A DNA stretch of 33,028 bases, from assembly GCA_028283345.1 (NCBI GenBank), contig JAPOGE010000017.1, positions 1-33,028 of the forward strand, written 5' to 3'. Source of the stretch: Candidatus Poseidoniales archaeon (GTDB lineage Archaea; Thermoplasmatota; Poseidoniia; Poseidoniales; Poseidoniaceae). The translations under genes were made by a program, and so were the position numbers. The notes under the pieces were generated by a model that was not told the DNA's origin, searched no databases, and worked only from the letters and a program-made list of their open reading frames with translations. The stretch's first letter is position 1, and each line of letters starts with the position of its first letter. Positions 1-18,266 of the stretch are shown one piece after another.

Positions 1-1109
1 GCTGAACAAATATCGGTGCCATCCTCAGTAATTACCCATGTATTCGTTGTTGTACCTGTAGCACTTGGTGTGATTGTTAGGTCTGTATTTTGATTCCAAG
101 TCTGGCAACCAAACCATTGAGTGCTTCCAGATGAATGCTCAATAATTACATAAAAATTATCTGCATTACAGTCCTCTTCACTTATTCCAGTAGCAATACC
201 TGAATCCAAGGTTAAGGTTGCAATAATATCACTGGTTCCTGTTGTGAACGAAGTACCTGCTGTCAATGAGAATGTCGGAATCTGTGGGCAAGGACTAGCT
301 CCATTGCCCATAATCCAATCATAGTCGGAAGTTGGAATGAAAGGTTGCAACCAAGTGCTATCCATGATGTCATAAGCAGTGATGAAATGATAACTTCCAA
401 TGGGATTGTATAGATTGGGGTCAAATGCAGACATGGTTTGTGAAGACATCCCTGTGGCGCCACCATCATCAATTGCGATTACTGTGATTGTTCTTGTAAT
501 GCTAAGCAAACAAGTAGATGGAGTCATTGACTTGTGAACGGTCAATCCTTGGTCAAGTGGTACAGCAAATAACCCAGATATCACATTTCCATTTGGGAGC
601 GTATAATCATCTTCCGAATGCACTCCGGAATTACTTGGAAGATTGATATCTATAGCATTGTCACCATCATAATCAATACCGATTTGCGAAATAGTTCCAT
701 CAATATCTTTCGCATCCCAATGTAAGCCTATTAGGCTGTGATCTGGTTCGCCATTTCCTGAAATATCGGTTACTAAACCATCATCAAGAAACCAATAATT
801 GGTTTCAACTATTGGCACTTGATTCAACACTACATTTGCACTGGAACCTCCAATTTGAACAACTTGCCATCCAGTGGACATACAAGCTTGGAAATTTGTA
901 TCGGCCTCTACATAATACAGGCGGCCGAGTATAGATGTAACACAGTTTGGCAAATCACTTGCTGATGGAACATAATATGTCGGCCAATCATCTGTATCTT
1001 CTAAAATAATATCATCACCTTCGTCAGTTTCAATATCATTTCCGCCGATACAACCAGAAAGGGATACAGTCATCATCATCAAACAAATTACAAGGGGTAC
1101 TCTTCGCAT
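1..1109 (-). CDS. Secreted lipoprotein, 3' end truncated by the window edge; N-terminal DLPNC..GRLYYV..FQAC module
   Basis: Manual reverse-complement translation from ATG at 1109 is open to the window edge (MRRVPLVICLMMMTVSLSGCIGGNDIETDEGDD...DDWPTYYVPSASDLPNCVTSILGRLYYVEADTNFQACMSTGWQVV...). Lipobox LSGC. Absent from the ORF track because no stop lies inside the window. Confidence 0.9.
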   Translation of the reverse strand, partial: MRRVPLVICLMMMTVSLSGCIGGNDIETDEGDDIILEDTDDWPTYYVPSASDLPNCVTSILGRLYYVEADTNFQACMSTGWQVVQIGGSSANVVLNQVPIVETNYWFLDDGLVTDISGNGEPDHSLIGLHWDAKDIDGTISQIGIDYDGDNAIDINLPSNSGVHSEDDYTLPNGNVISGLFAVPLDQGLTVHKSMTPSTCLLSITRTITVIAIDDGGATGMSSQTMSAFDPNLYNPIGSYHFITAYDIMDSTWLQPFIPTSDYDWIMGNGASPCPQIPTFSLTAGTSFTTGTSDIIATLTLDSGIATGISEEDCNADNFYVIIEHSSGSTQWFGCQTWNQNTDLTITPSATGTTTNTWVITEDGTDICS

Positions 1110-11300: not shown

Positions 11301-14300
11301 TGGGTTACCATAATTATTCTCAGGCGTACGATGGTTTTGCCCGCTTGGGTCTCATCACCGAATCAACTACAATCACCACGATTTCACGTGGGTCATGGAG
11401 CACTCAGGTTGTCGGCTCAAACGACAATGTGGTCGTCCCCTTGCTCGATATCATCCCGGGCCAGCCGACCATCCTCCAGTTCGCCGTAAGTGCTGATACC
11501 AGCATCACCCTGTACGACAAGGCGGTACCTTTCAACCACCTTTTCACGATTCCATTGTCGGCAGATTTCCTCGCCAATATTTCTGCTGGTCTATCTGTCA
11601 ACCAAAGCACTGGAGAGTTCATCGTACCGGTTGACCTGAGGACCGAGAGCGGCGGTTTCATCGTCGGCGGAATGATTGAATGGCAGCGACTATTCACCGA
11701 TGTTTTCTATATTCCTCCTCCCTCAACCATCTATCCCGATGGCAGTTCGTTCACGATTGAGACCTACAGTTTGCACAATTTTGAGGGGGTGATTGACACC
11801 GTCCGCCTGAGCATCGGTACAAGCCGCGACCTCGATACAGCCGAGGTGGTATTTGTGGCGAGAAACACCTCCACTCCTCAGGCAACCCTCGAAGTTGAGC
11901 GCGGGGCGGAATTGATGTCACTCGATACCGCTGATTGGAATGCCGGGTTCACTGAAAATATCCGCCGAATATATTGGCGAATCACCCCGTCGCGGGACTG
12001 GGGTGACCAAGCACGGTTGTGGTGGATGCTGGAGTCCTCCAATGATGATTCCTCACCGCTCGGGCCGACCGTGGTCAGCACCGGTGGCTCAGCCGGCCCA
12101 GCCCTCGAGGTCGACCTTGAGGTGACCGACCTGGTCGTAGCCGACCAGTTCGGTAACGATATCGCCGATGAATCAAATTCCCTCTACCCGTGGTCATTGC
12201 AGGCCGATAGCAATATTTCGCTCAGCGGCTTCGTCCGCTTCCAAGGCTCACCCGATATCGCCGCTCCCGATGAGATGTTCACCCTCAACCTGTCATTGCA
12301 GGATGGGCAAGATGGAATGGGAGGTGTGGCAACCTATGTTGAGGTCGCGACCACAGATGGGCATTGGTCGGCCAATTTGACCATTCCCAGCGGAGAGGAT
12401 ATCTCAAGTGGAAGTGAGATGAAGGTCGTGACTTCTCTCGAGTTTTCAGCCGCCGAGTCGGCTAACGGGGTCAGCGATGAGACCCCGGAGGCCAAGTATC
12501 CCCGATTCATCTTTGATTCCCAAGGTCCGACTCTGGGAACCCTGTACACCATCCCTCCGGGAATGCGCCAGCCCGCCGATGGCCATGTGTGGTATGAGGG
12601 CAATCTGTTGGCTCTCTCCATCGAGGTTGGCGACGATGTCCGCCAAGGTGAGACTCTCAACCTGCACTATTGGGTCGAAGGGGTCGATGATGCCAACATG
12701 GACGGCAATGCACAAGGCGAAGAATACCGTGTGCTGAGCGAACAATTATCGCTGAACTCACTCAACCAGATTGTTGATTTCCCCTTGATTGATGTCTCGG
12801 CGGCAATTCCCGAAGGCACCTCTTGGGGTGAAGTGAGCCTGTGGCTGGATGGCGATGACCTCGCCGGAAATCCACTCATAAGTGGCGGTGCGCCCGGACT
12901 GGGGGTCGGCTCAGGTGCTGGTGTGGGGGTTGGAGGTGGAGATTTGGCGACGGTCAGGATAACCCGGGATTCGGTGGCGGAAATCGCCAGCGGCTCACTC
13001 GCTTTCGACCTCGTCAACGGGCAATTGCTGGGCGGCCATGAGCATACCTTCAGCGTCATTCTCGAAGAGGAGGATGGTTTGGTCAGTCTCGACAAATTGG
13101 TTCTCGATATCACCGGTGACCACGATGGGGAAGACTGTGCCATCATCTGGTATCCGTGGTCGGGAGTGATCGATTATTCACTCGAGTGTTTTGTCGACGG
13201 CAGTGTCAGCGTCGGATATGAGGAGATATCTGTCGGTCGTTGGCAGATTGAAATTAGTTTCATACTTCCCTGGCTCAACAGCAGTGCCTTCGGCCCGTCA
13301 GCATCGATACCTTCCTTCGCGGTGTTCGACCTCGGTCAAGACCTCGGGTTGGGATATGGGGCGATGACTCCATTTGCTTGGCAATACAATGGCGACGCCG
13401 AAATAGTAGTGGTCGAGATGAATGACCTGAGCGCGCCATTCGGGCGGCTAGTCGGCGATACATTCTACATCAGCAGTGATGATCTGATTACTGTGGGAGT
13501 GCTGGTCGTCAACACCGGTACCGACCTGCCCCTGGACCTCGAATACGGTTTTCAGATACGGGCTGCCGGGGGGATAAACCAGTCGACGGCAACCGGATTG
13601 TATGCCGGTGATGGTGAGTTGGGCTATGCGGCGATGGAATTGTACTACGATGATTTTCCGAATTTGGCCGCGACCCTGCACGTCGAGCCGCTGGCGCTGG
13701 GAAATAACACCCCACAAATATTCCACACCACCGGTGAATCATATTCGGTCGTCTTCGACAATTATGCCCCGCGCCTGGTCATCCCACCAAATCTGTACAG
13801 CGTGCATGTCGAGCGAATGGATTACCTCCCGGTGACCTTCGATATCGCCGAAGCAAATCAGATGAATCCCGAATCGGTCGTAGTTCACTTTGCCTTCATC
13901 AACGCCGATGGCCAGACCAGATATGCCGGCTCAGAGCAGGCCGAGTTGGCTTCACACAGTGGTGGTGATTGGAATTATCAGGCCATCTTGAATCTCACTC
14001 CGCCTTCCTCACAACCCGGAGTTGGGGGTGGGTTGGGGAATACTCCCCTCAATACCGACACGCTTCGTCTGTGGGTGGTAGGTGCCGACTATGCTGGTAA
14101 TCTCCTGAAGGGTGGTGGCACTGAGGAATCACCGATGTATCCAGCCTTCATCGCCCCCACTTTCACTCTCTTCCTGGAGCCCTTGGCTCAAATTGATGAT
14201 GAGGTGGAGATCGGTCATGCCATCGTGGTGCTTTCATCAATCAGCAATCTTGGGGATGGCCGTGGAAATGCTACCCTCACCCTATACATCAATGGGGTGC

Positions 14301-14620
14301 TGGTCGATTCTACCACGGTTGAATTATTACCTGAGGGAGTGGCTGAATTCCGCTTGGAATATCTCCCCGAGGCTCTCGGTCAACACCAGGTCATGGTAGT
14401 GCTTAATCAGACCGGACAGAGTGAGAACTTCAGTATCGAGGTGGTGGCATCCACACCGGTGAGTGATTCCTTCAGCGCCGCCTCGGCGGCCGGCGCCGGC
14501 CTGGCGATGTTGTTCATCTTCGCCGCAATAATCATCATCGTCCGCGGCCGGAATTCGCTGCACGGGGAATATGATGAGGACAAGGAGTTTGACGATTACG
14601 AGGATTTTGAGCAGGAGTAA
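8306..14620 (+). CDS. Giant multidomain secreted surface protein with C-terminal TM anchor and acidic cytoplasmic tail
   Basis: ~2100 aa. Signal-like segment RQKHLAALLTLMMILTPAMPLVGG; several MAM/lectin-like segments ending in GPGWFIDNLTLE, INGWEGVMVDDVILH, GAGWYIDNVGVEV; Ig-like segments with D(L/Y)AGN; CARDB-like C-terminal domain; TM GAGLAMLFIFAAIIIIVRGR and tail GEYDEDKEFDDYEDFEQE. Start could be 8306 or an internal GTG at 8408. Confidence 0.88.
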   Translation: MNAHMVSPSESRFTIDGLGGLLISSATTEQCEGAVVVRQKHLAALLTLMMILTPAMPLVGGESTPWEGQTHPRPANPGGAVEISTTGFTLPTNGTITAGWLNLSTDWDQPGGNGTGWSAGGKSNFTSGQDLLTTSLRFEGALSLAQDQSVGSYEDFTTLETTFLDWLPAGPDSLLWSPSDLNLSGTNVTVGDDTGLFNSSWGGTIPAFSTEGGMVVSTLGYSLSRVPAGAHAWLEGPQVRLPNVIRNYSAQFDYWIHLDEGGGWMEYSLDGGQWKVLNPEGGYPDDLPTASPQLTGFANASASGWKKATFALDGLNGIHSAEHLRLRFVIWTDANAITTGPGWFIDNLTLENEGEPLACWFHGNLNGAYANDADAWIVFNFSTTNLTVPMEITASLDWDLEGGWNDNLFVEASNDNQTWYEISLPPGIPGIGLIVNGIAYADETGGWVDITMPLPTIFQNQSKVWLRFRVETDYSLGYGASINGWEGVMVDDVILHANSSAGKVNILLDNFSTNDSVEIGVAAGANEQWQYLTDYGHNGNSTVIYGFESTIEFARGWHLNHERGSPWEIGTTNNGSGWGPGSFPNNGNGAGLVLNGKYAANTLTHLETKDWSIPVNASARLVFDNWVCTEANWDGGTIFISDDAGLSWAPFAQQEPDFYDTRSTVNPFSPLYNLMIFDGSSNSAGCNVQPWVTKQGNLSAWSGQNVRFRFTFFSDTYLEGAGWYIDNVGVEVDWFEPSGKWLSPPIKVGPSGYGSAAIGGQIPSETSVSATVLDSSGTPIIGYAGRDLPLDLRGIRPDQHPTIHLRLHLATTDALRTPVLQNLHVGANLYLTVPVLDSSGWESSATLPVLWDSDSGAYVSANSSGKMTAGISIHRPARSISIWCDCENVYLSLNPQASPSTAYLAILIQQPTSSLVNGLYLRDIQDLKITIDLLQNGWVKDLRVEVEYNDIAVNPAVDLKGDGSDEWAHSGPFGIATDVNGINNLQFYAIYGVTYSKNLGYHNYSQAYDGFARLGLITESTTITTISRGSWSTQVVGSNDNVVVPLLDIIPGQPTILQFAVSADTSITLYDKAVPFNHLFTIPLSADFLANISAGLSVNQSTGEFIVPVDLRTESGGFIVGGMIEWQRLFTDVFYIPPPSTIYPDGSSFTIETYSLHNFEGVIDTVRLSIGTSRDLDTAEVVFVARNTSTPQATLEVERGAELMSLDTADWNAGFTENIRRIYWRITPSRDWGDQARLWWMLESSNDDSSPLGPTVVSTGGSAGPALEVDLEVTDLVVADQFGNDIADESNSLYPWSLQADSNISLSGFVRFQGSPDIAAPDEMFTLNLSLQDGQDGMGGVATYVEVATTDGHWSANLTIPSGEDISSGSEMKVVTSLEFSAAESANGVSDETPEAKYPRFIFDSQGPTLGTLYTIPPGMRQPADGHVWYEGNLLALSIEVGDDVRQGETLNLHYWVEGVDDANMDGNAQGEEYRVLSEQLSLNSLNQIVDFPLIDVSAAIPEGTSWGEVSLWLDGDDLAGNPLISGGAPGLGVGSGAGVGVGGGDLATVRITRDSVAEIASGSLAFDLVNGQLLGGHEHTFSVILEEEDGLVSLDKLVLDITGDHDGEDCAIIWYPWSGVIDYSLECFVDGSVSVGYEEISVGRWQIEISFILPWLNSSAFGPSASIPSFAVFDLGQDLGLGYGAMTPFAWQYNGDAEIVVVEMNDLSAPFGRLVGDTFYISSDDLITVGVLVVNTGTDLPLDLEYGFQIRAAGGINQSTATGLYAGDGELGYAAMELYYDDFPNLAATLHVEPLALGNNTPQIFHTTGESYSVVFDNYAPRLVIPPNLYSVHVERMDYLPVTFDIAEANQMNPESVVVHFAFINADGQTRYAGSEQAELASHSGGDWNYQAILNLTPPSSQPGVGGGLGNTPLNTDTLRLWVVGADYAGNLLKGGGTEESPMYPAFIAPTFTLFLEPLAQIDDEVEIGHAIVVLSSISNLGDGRGNATLTLYINGVLVDSTTVELLPEGVAEFRLEYLPEALGQHQVMVVLNQTGQSENFSIEVVASTPVSDSFSAASAAGAGLAMLFIFAAIIIIVRGRNSLHGEYDEDKEFDDYEDFEQE

Positions 14621-14653
14621 GTATCAAACATACCGGGGGCCACGCCCGCTTAC

Positions 14654-14738
14654 GCAGGGGTTCCCGAGCGGTCAAAGGGGGCGGGCTCAAGATCCGCTGT
14701 CAAGGACTTCGCAGGTTCGAATCCTGCCCCCTGCACCA
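14654..14738 (+). tRNA. tRNA-Leu(CAA), CCA encoded
   Basis: Acceptor GCAGGGG/CCCCTGC, anticodon arm GCGGG-CTCAAGA-TCCGC (anticodon CAA), extended variable region, T arm GCAGG-TTCGAAT-CCTGC, ending ACCA. Confidence 0.93.
14715..14738 (+). repeat. att-like direct repeat, left copy (within tRNA-Leu 3' end)
   Basis: gttcgaatcctgccccctgcacca, identical 24 bp to 17179-17202. Confidence 0.9.
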
Positions 14739-14845
14739 TAGTCAAAAAAGCCCTATCAAAAGCATGCTATGAGTAGGGAAAAACGAGCAGGGCTGGAAGG
14801 ATTCTCAAAATATAATAACATTTTTATTTCGGTTTGAAAGTAGGG

Positions 14846-15550
14846 CTATTCCTCGCTTGAATCAATAGGGTTATTTAGGCTGGGATGATATATCTTCTTC
14901 CTGTACGTAATACCAAACTTTGTCCATACATCTCGCCATTCTCCTTCTTCGGTATTATCCACTAGAGATTCTCGTTCTTTCTCTGTAGGTAGGTACAACT
15001 TATCGTGTAACCAAATAGATACAATGTAAACAGCTAACGCGGCAATAAATCCATATAAATCACCGACCCACTCTGCAACGATGATCCAGATAGAAACAGT
15101 GGTCATAATCATACATGCAGAGAATAATATTTCGTCCACTGTTAACTTTTCTTCCTTCTGTCTATCTTTTCTAGCCATGTATATGGTGCCAAAATAGCCG
15201 GACTGTTCTGCGTATTCTTCAGTTCCATGTACCTTGACTTTTCGCCTCCTCAACACGTCCTGAAATCCTGAGATACAAATGTAGAATAGGAAAGCAGTCC
15301 AGGCGAAATAAGTATAAAATGGAGAATCTAGATAATCTAATATTACCCAAATCACAAATGAAATTGCGATGTAGCCAGCTGTCACATTTTCCTCCCATTC
15401 AGTCTCTTGAAACACCGTGGTCATATTTTTTCCGAGCTTACTTAGGGCAACATCCCTATTGTCCCAGAGAGGTATGCCGAGTATAATTATACTGAAAAGA
15501 ACTATGAAAATAGATGATGATGGAAATAACTCAAGTTGTTTCACCAACAA
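14846..15550 (-). CDS. Orphan multi-TM membrane protein
   Basis: 234 aa with several hydrophobic helices (IFIVLFSIIILGIPLW; IAISFVIWVILDYL; FAWTAFLFYICISG; ILFSACMIMTTVSIWIIVAEWV; FIAALAVYIVSIWL); AT-rich codons; no family recognised. Confidence 0.7.
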   Translation of the reverse strand: MLVKQLELFPSSSIFIVLFSIIILGIPLWDNRDVALSKLGKNMTTVFQETEWEENVTAGYIAISFVIWVILDYLDSPFYTYFAWTAFLFYICISGFQDVLRRRKVKVHGTEEYAEQSGYFGTIYMARKDRQKEEKLTVDEILFSACMIMTTVSIWIIVAEWVGDLYGFIAALAVYIVSIWLHDKLYLPTEKERESLVDNTEEGEWRDVWTKFGITYRKKIYHPSLNNPIDSSEE

Positions 15551-15789
15551 TATCTCATAAATAACTAGTGCAAGCCAAATGAATAGGACCTAATATGCCA
15601 ACGGCTGGCGTGAATAGAAATAATTTCGAATACCCCTCCACATCTACTTCGCCGAAGATATGGTAGCACATTAGATTCACGTCTATTGTGTTGTAATAAT
15701 ACGGTAAATCCCGCCTTGAGGTCGGCTTCAGGTGGTTGTAGGGTCGCCATTGGTTAGCCTAATGGTCTAAATACCGCTACAGAAGCACC

Positions 15790-17103
15790 ATGCGACGCTA
15801 TAGCACATGCATATTGATGAGCCTGCTTATGATTACCACCACCCTTGCCGGTTGCTTCGGTGGTGATGAGGAACCAGCCCCCGATGAGGGTGATGATACA
15901 CCTGAACCAACACCCACTCTAGACGACTGGGATGTGTACTATGTCACCACCAGTGACGACCTGCCAAATTGTGATGGCGATACGCTCGGCCGCCTCTATT
16001 ATGTCATAGCAGATGCTGCATTCCAAGCCTGCACTGACACGGATTGGATAACCGTTGACCTGACTGGGCCGATGGGTCCAGCGGGTGCTGATGGTGTGAA
16101 TGGAACCAATGGAACCAATGGAACCAATGGAACCAATGGAACCAATGGAACCAATGGAACCAATGGAACCGGTGGTGCGGACGGGGTCGATGGAGCGGAT
16201 GGTGCTGACGGTGCTCAAGGCGAACAGGGACCTCCCGGAGCAAACGGAACCGACGGACAGGACGGACAGGACGGAGCCAACGGAATGGACGGCCAGAATG
16301 GTGCTGACGGCAGTGCCTCGCCCAACACGATGCTCACCCGCGTGTCCGCTTCGCCAGTCTCGCTGGGATGCATCTCAGGAGGCCGCGTCATAGAACAAGG
16401 ACTCGACAACGGCGACGGAGGTGGAACTGCACAGAACGGAATCCTCGAGATAGGCGAGGTCGACTACACCACCACATACTGCAGCCGCCTCCTAGATGAA
16501 GCAGAGTTGGTTAATGACCTCTTCATCGGCACCGCCGGCGGGGGTGCCGCCAGCATCACAGTCATGGGAACCCGGCTCTACTTTTCTGCGAATGACGGCA
16601 TCAGCGGCCAAGAACTGTGGGCATACGAGACCACCAACGACTCGACCTGGTTGGTGTCCGACACCTACAGCGGCAGCGGCGGCGGATTTCCAGAATACAT
16701 CACGGTCATGGGGACTAGGCTCTACTTTTCTGCGAATGACGGCATCAGCGGGTACGAACTGTGGGCGCACGAGACGACCAACTCCTCGACCTGGCAGGTG
16801 GCCGACATCCAAAGCGGCAGCGGCAGTGGGTATGCGGATTACATCACGGTCATGGGCACGCGTCTCTACTTCGTGGCGACCTGCACATCTACGCCATTCA
16901 ACCAGTGCTCCCACGAACTGTGGGCGCACGACACCACTACCGGGGTAACCCAGCAGATGGCCAACATCTGTTATGATTGCAACGGGTTTCCGCAGCATCT
17001 CACACCCATGGGAAACCGGCTCTACTTCGAGGCGGGTGACTACAGCAGCGGCCGAGAACTGTGGGTGTACGGAATTATTGAGCACACCACCACCTACAAT
17101 TGA
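15790..17103 (+). CDS. Modular lipoprotein: DLPNC/FQAC module, collagen-like (Gly-X-Y) stalk, Cys-containing hinge, ELW-repeat head
   Basis: Lipobox TLAGC; YYVTTSDDLPNCDGDTLGRLYYVIADAAFQACTDTDW; GPMGPAGADGVNGTNGT...GQDGQDGANGMDGQNGADG; VSLGCISGGRVIEQGLDNGDGGGTAQNGILEIGEVDYTTTYCS; four GTRLYF.ANDGISG.ELWA-type repeats. Confidence 0.88.
   Translation: MRRYSTCILMSLLMITTTLAGCFGGDEEPAPDEGDDTPEPTPTLDDWDVYYVTTSDDLPNCDGDTLGRLYYVIADAAFQACTDTDWITVDLTGPMGPAGADGVNGTNGTNGTNGTNGTNGTNGTNGTGGADGVDGADGADGAQGEQGPPGANGTDGQDGQDGANGMDGQNGADGSASPNTMLTRVSASPVSLGCISGGRVIEQGLDNGDGGGTAQNGILEIGEVDYTTTYCSRLLDEAELVNDLFIGTAGGGAASITVMGTRLYFSANDGISGQELWAYETTNDSTWLVSDTYSGSGGGFPEYITVMGTRLYFSANDGISGYELWAHETTNSSTWQVADIQSGSGSGYADYITVMGTRLYFVATCTSTPFNQCSHELWAHDTTTGVTQQMANICYDCNGFPQHLTPMGNRLYFEAGDYSSGRELWVYGIIEHTTTYN
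16099..16170 (+). repeat. Perfect 9-bp tandem repeat (aatggaacc) x 8
   Basis: Eight consecutive aatggaacc units encoding (NGT)8 inside the collagen-like region. Confidence 0.95.
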
Positions 17104-17178
17104 TTCATTGCACGCGGAACCGAGTTCGAAGCATCCAAAGGTCGCTAAAAGTAGGGCTTTCCAGAATAAAAAATAACA

Positions 17179-17202
17179 GTTCGAATCCTGCCCCCTGCAC
17201 CA
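17179..17202 (+). repeat. att-like direct repeat, right copy (tRNA-Leu 3' fragment)
   Basis: gttcgaatcctgccccctgcacca; not preceded by the rest of a tRNA. Confidence 0.9.
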
Positions 17203-17350
17203 ATTTGCTCGACGATGAATCGAGTTTGGAACCAAGGTTGGCTGTGTTTCGAAAAACAATCGGTACAGTAAATTTTTCGGGCGCCCTAAAAATGACTGAA
17301 AATTATTCCCAAATTATCTATCACTGTCCCGCAGTGTCACCTTTAACAAT

Positions 17351-17378
17351 GGTTTAGGGCAACCTAAACCTTATATGG
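17351..17378 (+). promoter_or_regulatory. DtxR-like palindrome immediately upstream of a TATA-like element, FTR1 promoter
   Basis: ggtttagg-gcaa-cctaaacc (17351-17370, perfect 8-bp arms) followed by ttatat (17371-17376), about 26 bp before ATG 17400. Confidence 0.6.
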
Positions 17379-17399
17379 AAATCCACCGCCGCCGGCCTT

Positions 17400-18266
17400 A
17401 TGCTGGCAGATGTGTGGGCAGGTGGATTGATTGGCTTCAGAGAAGCGATGGAAGCGACAATCATCGTTGTGGTTTTCATATTGATTCTCAAAAAATCCGG
17501 ACGCCCGGAAATGATGAAAAATATCTGGAAGGGAGTTGGGGCCGGTGTCGTCGCCAGCATCATCACCGCGATATTGTTCAAATTGGTAATCGGCAGTTTT
17601 GAAGACAATGAGGCTTGGTTTGAAGGAGTGTTGATGCTCGCTTCTGCAGCCCTGATTGCAGTCGTGGTCTTTCATTTGATCAAGCACCATTCGAAGGAAG
17701 AGTTGGAAAGAATTGCCGAGGGTGCAATCTCGGACCAGGAAAAGGGTGCAAAGGCACTCTCGGTCATCGCCTTCTTATCGGTATGGCGTGAAGGTTCGGA
17801 AACCGTGCTCTTCATGTCCGCGGGCACTGAGACCTCTTGGGCGATTTTCGGGTTGGTAATAGGTATCTCTGCCGCAGTACTGCTGGGTTGGCTGATGCTT
17901 TCCAAGGGGGTGCGAATAGACATCAAGAGATTATTCACCATCACAACCGTACTGCTCATCTTCGTCGGTGCCGGACTGGCCGCACATGGAGTCCATGAAC
18001 TACAGGAGGGCGAAGTCGGACTGATACCGGTCTATGATGACGAGTTCTGGAATGTCAATCCACAGTGGGACGGCACAGGAGAGGCTCCGATTCTGCACGA
18101 CAAGGGATTGGTCGGTGGAACCCTGCGGGCGATGCTGGGGTGGAATGGTAACCCGACAATGTTGGAATTCTTCACCTGGGCCGGATATCTGACGGTGATG
18201 GGTATTCTCTACAAGCGAGACACTGAATCTCATACTCCAGCCGAGGAACCCGAGCCCCTGCTGTGA
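17400..18266 (+). CDS. FTR1-family iron permease
   Basis: Two REGxE-type motifs (GFREAMEATIIVVV and VWREGSETVLFMSAG) in a polytopic membrane protein. Confidence 0.88.
   Translation: MLADVWAGGLIGFREAMEATIIVVVFILILKKSGRPEMMKNIWKGVGAGVVASIITAILFKLVIGSFEDNEAWFEGVLMLASAALIAVVVFHLIKHHSKEELERIAEGAISDQEKGAKALSVIAFLSVWREGSETVLFMSAGTETSWAIFGLVIGISAAVLLGWLMLSKGVRIDIKRLFTITTVLLIFVGAGLAAHGVHELQEGEVGLIPVYDDEFWNVNPQWDGTGEAPILHDKGLVGGTLRAMLGWNGNPTMLEFFTWAGYLTVMGILYKRDTESHTPAEEPEPLL

Follow-up and report, generated by a model that had tools for sequence, protein, structure and literature searches.

In light of a dense series of potential N-glycosylation sites encoded in a marine archaeal gene, we became interested in whether these sites define a glycosylated stalk or reflect another property of the sequence. 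The gene is part of a stretch of 33,028 nucleotides (GenBank assembly GCA_028283345.1, contig JAPOGE010000017.1, positions 1 to 33,028), hereafter termed the window, which originates from a Poseidoniales (Marine Group II) archaeon. It comprises an open reading frame for a lipoprotein of 437 amino acids with a collagen-like stalk, which we regard as complete because its C-terminal xIEHTxTY motif is common to most homologs in the family alignment. Its features are:

15790..17103 (+): collagen-like ELW-repeat lipoprotein gene, 437 aa (open reading frame, Pfam, TIGR04534, family alignment)
15790..15855 (+): signal peptide and lipobox LAGC with Cys22 (M1, G21 and C22 invariant in the family alignment)
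15922..16065 (+): N-terminal domain DWxVYYV..DLPxC..LGRLYYV..FQxC..W, common to five paralogous loci and members of the order
about 16066..16317 (+): collagen-like stalk of 28 uninterrupted Gly-X-Y triplets, residues 93-176 (PF01391)
16099..16170 (+): perfect array of eight 9-bp units, (NGT)8 (Tandem Repeats Finder)
16333..16482 (+): DUF7151-like domain, residues 182-231 (sub-threshold score, conserved in homologs)
16555..17079 (+): ELWxxDGT repeats (TIGR04534; 144-bp DNA repeat)

The signal peptide and lipobox, with the sequence MRRYSTCILMSLLMITTTLAGC, contain the motif TTLAGC at residues 17–22, whose cysteine is invariant in the alignment, and on this reading of the sequence the protein is a lipoprotein, in agreement with the first-pass annotation of the window. 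The stalk scores 48 bits against the Pfam collagen family PF01391 (cut-off 27.2) and the C-terminal repeats 122.3 bits against TIGR04534 (cut-off 65). The domain between them reaches 20 bits against DUF7151 (PF23657), below the cut-off of 27.2, and is hence only termed DUF7151-like, and none of the cut-offs of the NCBIfam equivalogs for SclA, SclB and Lcl is reached (33.6 vs 500, 51 vs 325 and 38.7 vs 400, respectively). An AlphaFold2 model from the single sequence is uninformative, with a mean pLDDT of 35, and literature searches for ELWxxDGT and for collagen-like proteins of Marine Group II returned nothing. The described organization suggests a lipid-anchored, elongated protein that would reside at the cell surface, with a stalk that presumably trimerises and would extend over roughly 24 nm, and a head of ELWxxDGT repeats that, judging from the type of family, probably binds surfaces, polymers or particles.

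Within the stalk, we find eight perfect AATGGAACC units (period 9, 8.0 copies, 100% match in Tandem Repeats Finder), which are in frame with the 437-residue protein. The initial description of this region as a 9-bp minisatellite that encodes (NGT)8 and at the same time reads as Gly-X-Y is thus accurate, as the array is embedded in the uninterrupted triplets recognized by PF01391, and the segments GPMGPAG and GQDGQDG do flank it. Its proposed boundaries, 16087–16320, required correction to 16099–16170 for the array and to about 16066–16317 for the entire Gly-X-Y run. Besides the eight consecutive N-G-T sequons of the array, the protein contains N152-G-T in the stalk and further sequons at N283 and N331 of the C-terminal domain. 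All eight units are encoded as AAT-GGA-ACC, whereas several synonymous codons are in use outside the array, and under the codon usage of this remainder of the gene the codon choice of the array has a probability of about 1e-10. The homogeneity of the units at the level of DNA is therefore not a matter of chance, and their identical codons indicate a recent expansion of the 9-bp unit by slippage or recombination, which we consider the simplest reading. Such slippage or unequal recombination would have lengthened the stalk, whose extension would be set by the number of repeats.

Some part of the protein is matched in 78 of 98 related genomes of the order, and the combination of lipobox, collagen-like stalk and ELWxxDGT repeats recurs across Poseidoniales. 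In the genome of the window, the signal peptide and N-terminal domain are also encoded at five other loci (on contigs C122, C25, C150 and C160 and at 843–1094 (-) of the window), three of which run on into a Gly-X-Y stalk in the available sequence. The locus at 843–1094, near the start of the window, encodes a further lipoprotein that shares the N-terminal domain but has no collagen stalk. The closest paralog, on C122, shares 77% DNA identity over 308 nt and at the corresponding place contains ordinary Gly-X-Y triplets and no array, which is thus specific to the window copy. Among 319 genomes of the order, arrays of at least four NGT units are confined to four, the one described here (eight units), G195 (four), G248 and G252 (seven each), and their codons differ. 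The arrays of G248 and G252, which belong to two Poseidonia species, are orthologous by their surrounding sequence. They constitute the only orthologous pair found and have the same number of units despite differences at wobble positions, and at least one array has thus kept its length between species. In the assembly of G252, the first unit reads AAC TGA ACC (N-stop-T; L182:7319-7362 and L684), which breaks the frame.

These observations bear on the possibility that the array acts as a contingency locus, where in-frame changes in copy number would tune the length of the stalk. There is precedent in the Legionella protein Lcl, where the number of Gly-X-Y repeats varies and is correlated with the capacity for binding and for biofilm formation (PMC6460258), and the perfect 9-bp units, their homogeneous codons and the different copy numbers of non-orthologous members (8, 4, 7 and 7) are all in line with it. 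The only orthologous pair is, however, of equal length, and copy number itself may be approximate in the assembly: four of the five paralogous loci (C122, C25, C150 and C160) are located at contig ends, which suggests assembly breaks near such genes and may render assembled copy numbers, including that of the array, unreliable. Although an influence of stalk length on function is plausible by analogy to Lcl, we thus regard a contingency locus as a possible but rather unlikely account of the array.

The interpretation of the array as a stalk designed for dense N-glycosylation requires the presence of an oligosaccharyltransferase. A search for AglB in the same genome, which had been suggested as a check of this proposal, identified such a gene on contig 136 (P0003). 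Its product contains the motif WWDYG, as part of SWWDYG, and scores 66.3 bits against PF02516 (cut-off 24.5), with the archaeal and eukaryotic oligosaccharyltransferases 3waj and 6c26 as best relatives of known structure, and 166 bits against TIGR04154, which is below the cut-off of 450. Some of the asparagines in the array may consequently be N-glycosylated, as an incidental result of the presence of AglB. In the ELW repeats of the protein and its homologs, many repeats carry an N-X-S/T sequon at one position (as in TSNHSTW and TTNSSTW), and these are perhaps better candidates for glycosylation than the stalk.

In a broader survey, we found runs of at least five NGT units at no fewer than 119 loci in public bacterial and archaeal genomes. 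All 80 examined loci are in the Gly-X-Y register, with up to 13 units, and many NGT arrays are also found in viral contigs and likewise in phages. An STT3-type oligosaccharyltransferase had no match in 25 of 27 bacterial genomes carrying such arrays. We then quantified how frequently asparagine in the Y position is followed by threonine in X, counted over non-redundant four-triplet contexts. In the stalks of Poseidoniales this coupling exceeds expectation 2.2-fold (43 of 93 vs 19.5 expected). It amounts to 3.4–5 times the expected value in viral collagen runs, which were chosen solely by Gly-Ala-Asp or Gly-Gln-Asp-Gly-Ala-Asp, and to 2.8 times in bacterial runs without long arrays drawn from array-bearing loci, both being sets gathered by DNA patterns rather than random samples. 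The succession of asparagine by serine, which generates the alternative sequon NGS, is enriched in none of the Poseidoniales, viral and bacterial sets. With coupling found also in the viral and bacterial sets, it is not a specific sign of sequon selection.

It would still be conceivable that the array was selected for N-glycosylation, with AglB-transferred glycans along the stalk forming a shielded, rigid bristle. The oligosaccharyltransferase with its WWDYG motif, the eight consecutive NGT units with one more in the stalk, the coupling in Poseidoniales and the (NGT)7 arrays of the two Poseidonia species, whose length was kept while wobble codons changed, could be viewed in favor of this proposal. 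They are opposed by the stronger coupling in viral runs, the absence of enrichment for NGS, which is equally a sequon, the arrays in bacteria without detected STT3, and the restriction of arrays to four of 319 genomes of an order where both members tested (2/2) contain AglB. Moreover, inefficient occupancy is expected for sequons at a spacing of only three residues. We thus consider selection for a glycan array improbable. As arrays are found in bacteria without STT3, coupling is found in viral runs and NGS is not enriched, N-glycosylation is not needed to explain the NGT runs. Since the coupling is real within Poseidoniales, selection for sequons could have acted there, although it is not required. 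The design of a densely glycosylated triple helix, as put forward in the first-pass annotation, is for the same reasons not sustained. Instead, NGT, or GTN in the collagen register, looks like a commonly expanded, slippage-prone triplet of prokaryotic collagen-like sequences, whose sequons would follow from the triplet itself and incidentally occur in an organism with AglB.

A second peculiarity concerns the location of the gene downstream of a tRNA, where the surrounding features are:

14654..14738 (+): intact tRNA-Leu(CAA), the insertion target (ARAGORN; Rfam tRNA 50.3 bits; 83/83 identical to G001)
14715..14738 (+): left 24-bp att-like repeat, the tRNA 3' end (100% identical to 17179-17202 in a repeat search)
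14739..17178 (no strand): insert of 2,464 bp, measured repeat-to-repeat, which the congener G001 lacks
14846..15550 (-): orphan open reading frame, 234 aa, TTG start (about 39% GC, hydrophobic stretches)
17179..17202 (+): right 24-bp att-like repeat, a displaced tRNA 3' fragment (in the empty site of G001, the sequence runs on here without a break)
17400..18266 (+): FTR1-like iron permease gene (PF03239; adjoins the tRNA in G001)

In the congener G001 (locus L102), the tRNA-Leu runs straight into the FTR1 flank, with positions 13378–14736 of the window corresponding to 12396–13754 and positions 17179–18016 to 13733–14570 of L102. The 24-bp repeats together with this empty site define the 2,464-bp segment as a precise insertion at the 3' end of the tRNA. 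On the other side of FTR1, between this gene and that of an acetyl-CoA synthetase, G001 contains a different reading frame of 1062 residues with a lipobox-like VGCLGG motif (L102:14834-18022) that is absent from the window. As an alternative, the repeated tRNA tail could be a remnant of a second tRNA-Leu gene instead of a scar of integration, for which tandem tRNA-Leu genes at another locus of a relative (L087) provide a parallel. Yet, no tRNA body precedes the copy at 17179–17202, and the single tRNA of the congener continues into the FTR1 flank without the whole 2.46 kb, which makes this explanation highly improbable.

The insert contains two reading frames, the collagen gene (54–60% GC) and the orphan of about 39% GC, whose hydrophobic stretches suggest a membrane protein and for which searches of 98 genomes, of viral contigs and of phages identified no relatives and Pfam no match. 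No integrase is encoded within the insert. Genes of the Phage_integrase family are present in each of eight genomes tested, at least one per genome (one in seven and two in the eighth), and the sole match in the genome of the window resides on another contig (C115). Both reading frames would have arrived together by site-specific insertion at tRNA-Leu(CAA), presumably catalyzed by a tyrosine recombinase that acted in trans or has since been lost. Exact duplications of a tRNA tail were found neither at other tRNAs of the genome (about 33) nor at those tRNAs that neighbor further members of the family (L068, L072 and L076) or the loci of collagen-stalk paralogs in Poseidoniales. A wider association between lipoprotein genes and the 3' ends of tRNAs received no support, with such genes within 2 kb downstream of 10 of 98 tRNAs and upstream of 6, in a count where one locus is included twice and some loci had been retrieved because of such genes. 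Downstream of a tRNA-Leu(TAG) on contig C134 of the same genome (L138:1014-1300), the 3' end of this tRNA recurs in inverted copies, and about 159 bp further there is a second near-identical unit of tail and inverted tail.

Taken together, we consider it likely that the locus encodes a lipid-anchored protein with a collagen stalk that was lengthened by slippage, whose sequons are incidental and whose gene was delivered by insertion at a tRNA. A more elaborate scenario, where an AglB-decorated stalk would co-vary in length and glycan number via the 9-bp array and be exchanged at tRNAs on a cassette without integrase, appears to us quite improbable. The parts of this system are of known kinds, and its setting in a tRNA-gene insertion is the less expected feature. 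NGT arrays are a widespread feature of collagen-like proteins in organisms for which no enzyme of N-glycosylation was detected, and sequon density alone is hence no proof of a glycosylation design. Our analysis further documents the architecture of a lipid-anchored surface protein with collagen stalk and ELWxxDGT repeats in uncultured marine Poseidoniales, and the presence of one family member on a small tRNA-flanked insertion bears on the exchange of surface proteins within this group.

Genomic islands that target tRNAs are defined by an intact tRNA and a displaced 3' fragment at their ends (Islander, PMC4383910), and the described insert shares both marks and has an empty site in a congener. 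With a size of just 2.46 kb and no tyrosine integrase of its own, it does not qualify as an active island in this classification. Among Poseidoniales, paralogs (C122, C25, C150, L039, L040, L043 and L683) share the lipobox, Gly-X-Y repeats and, where the contig reaches, the DUF7151-like domain and ELW repeats, but most lack an NGT array and they are found at other loci. With ELWxxDGT proteins (TIGR04534), the protein has the repeats in common, whereas it differs by its collagen-like stalk and lipobox. Finally, it resembles Legionella Lcl and streptococcal Scl1 and Scl2 in its N-terminal secretion signal, Gly-X-Y stalk and non-collagenous domain, while being archaeal and lipid-anchored, with an ELWxxDGT head and (NGT)8 instead of the repeat units of Lcl or Scl.
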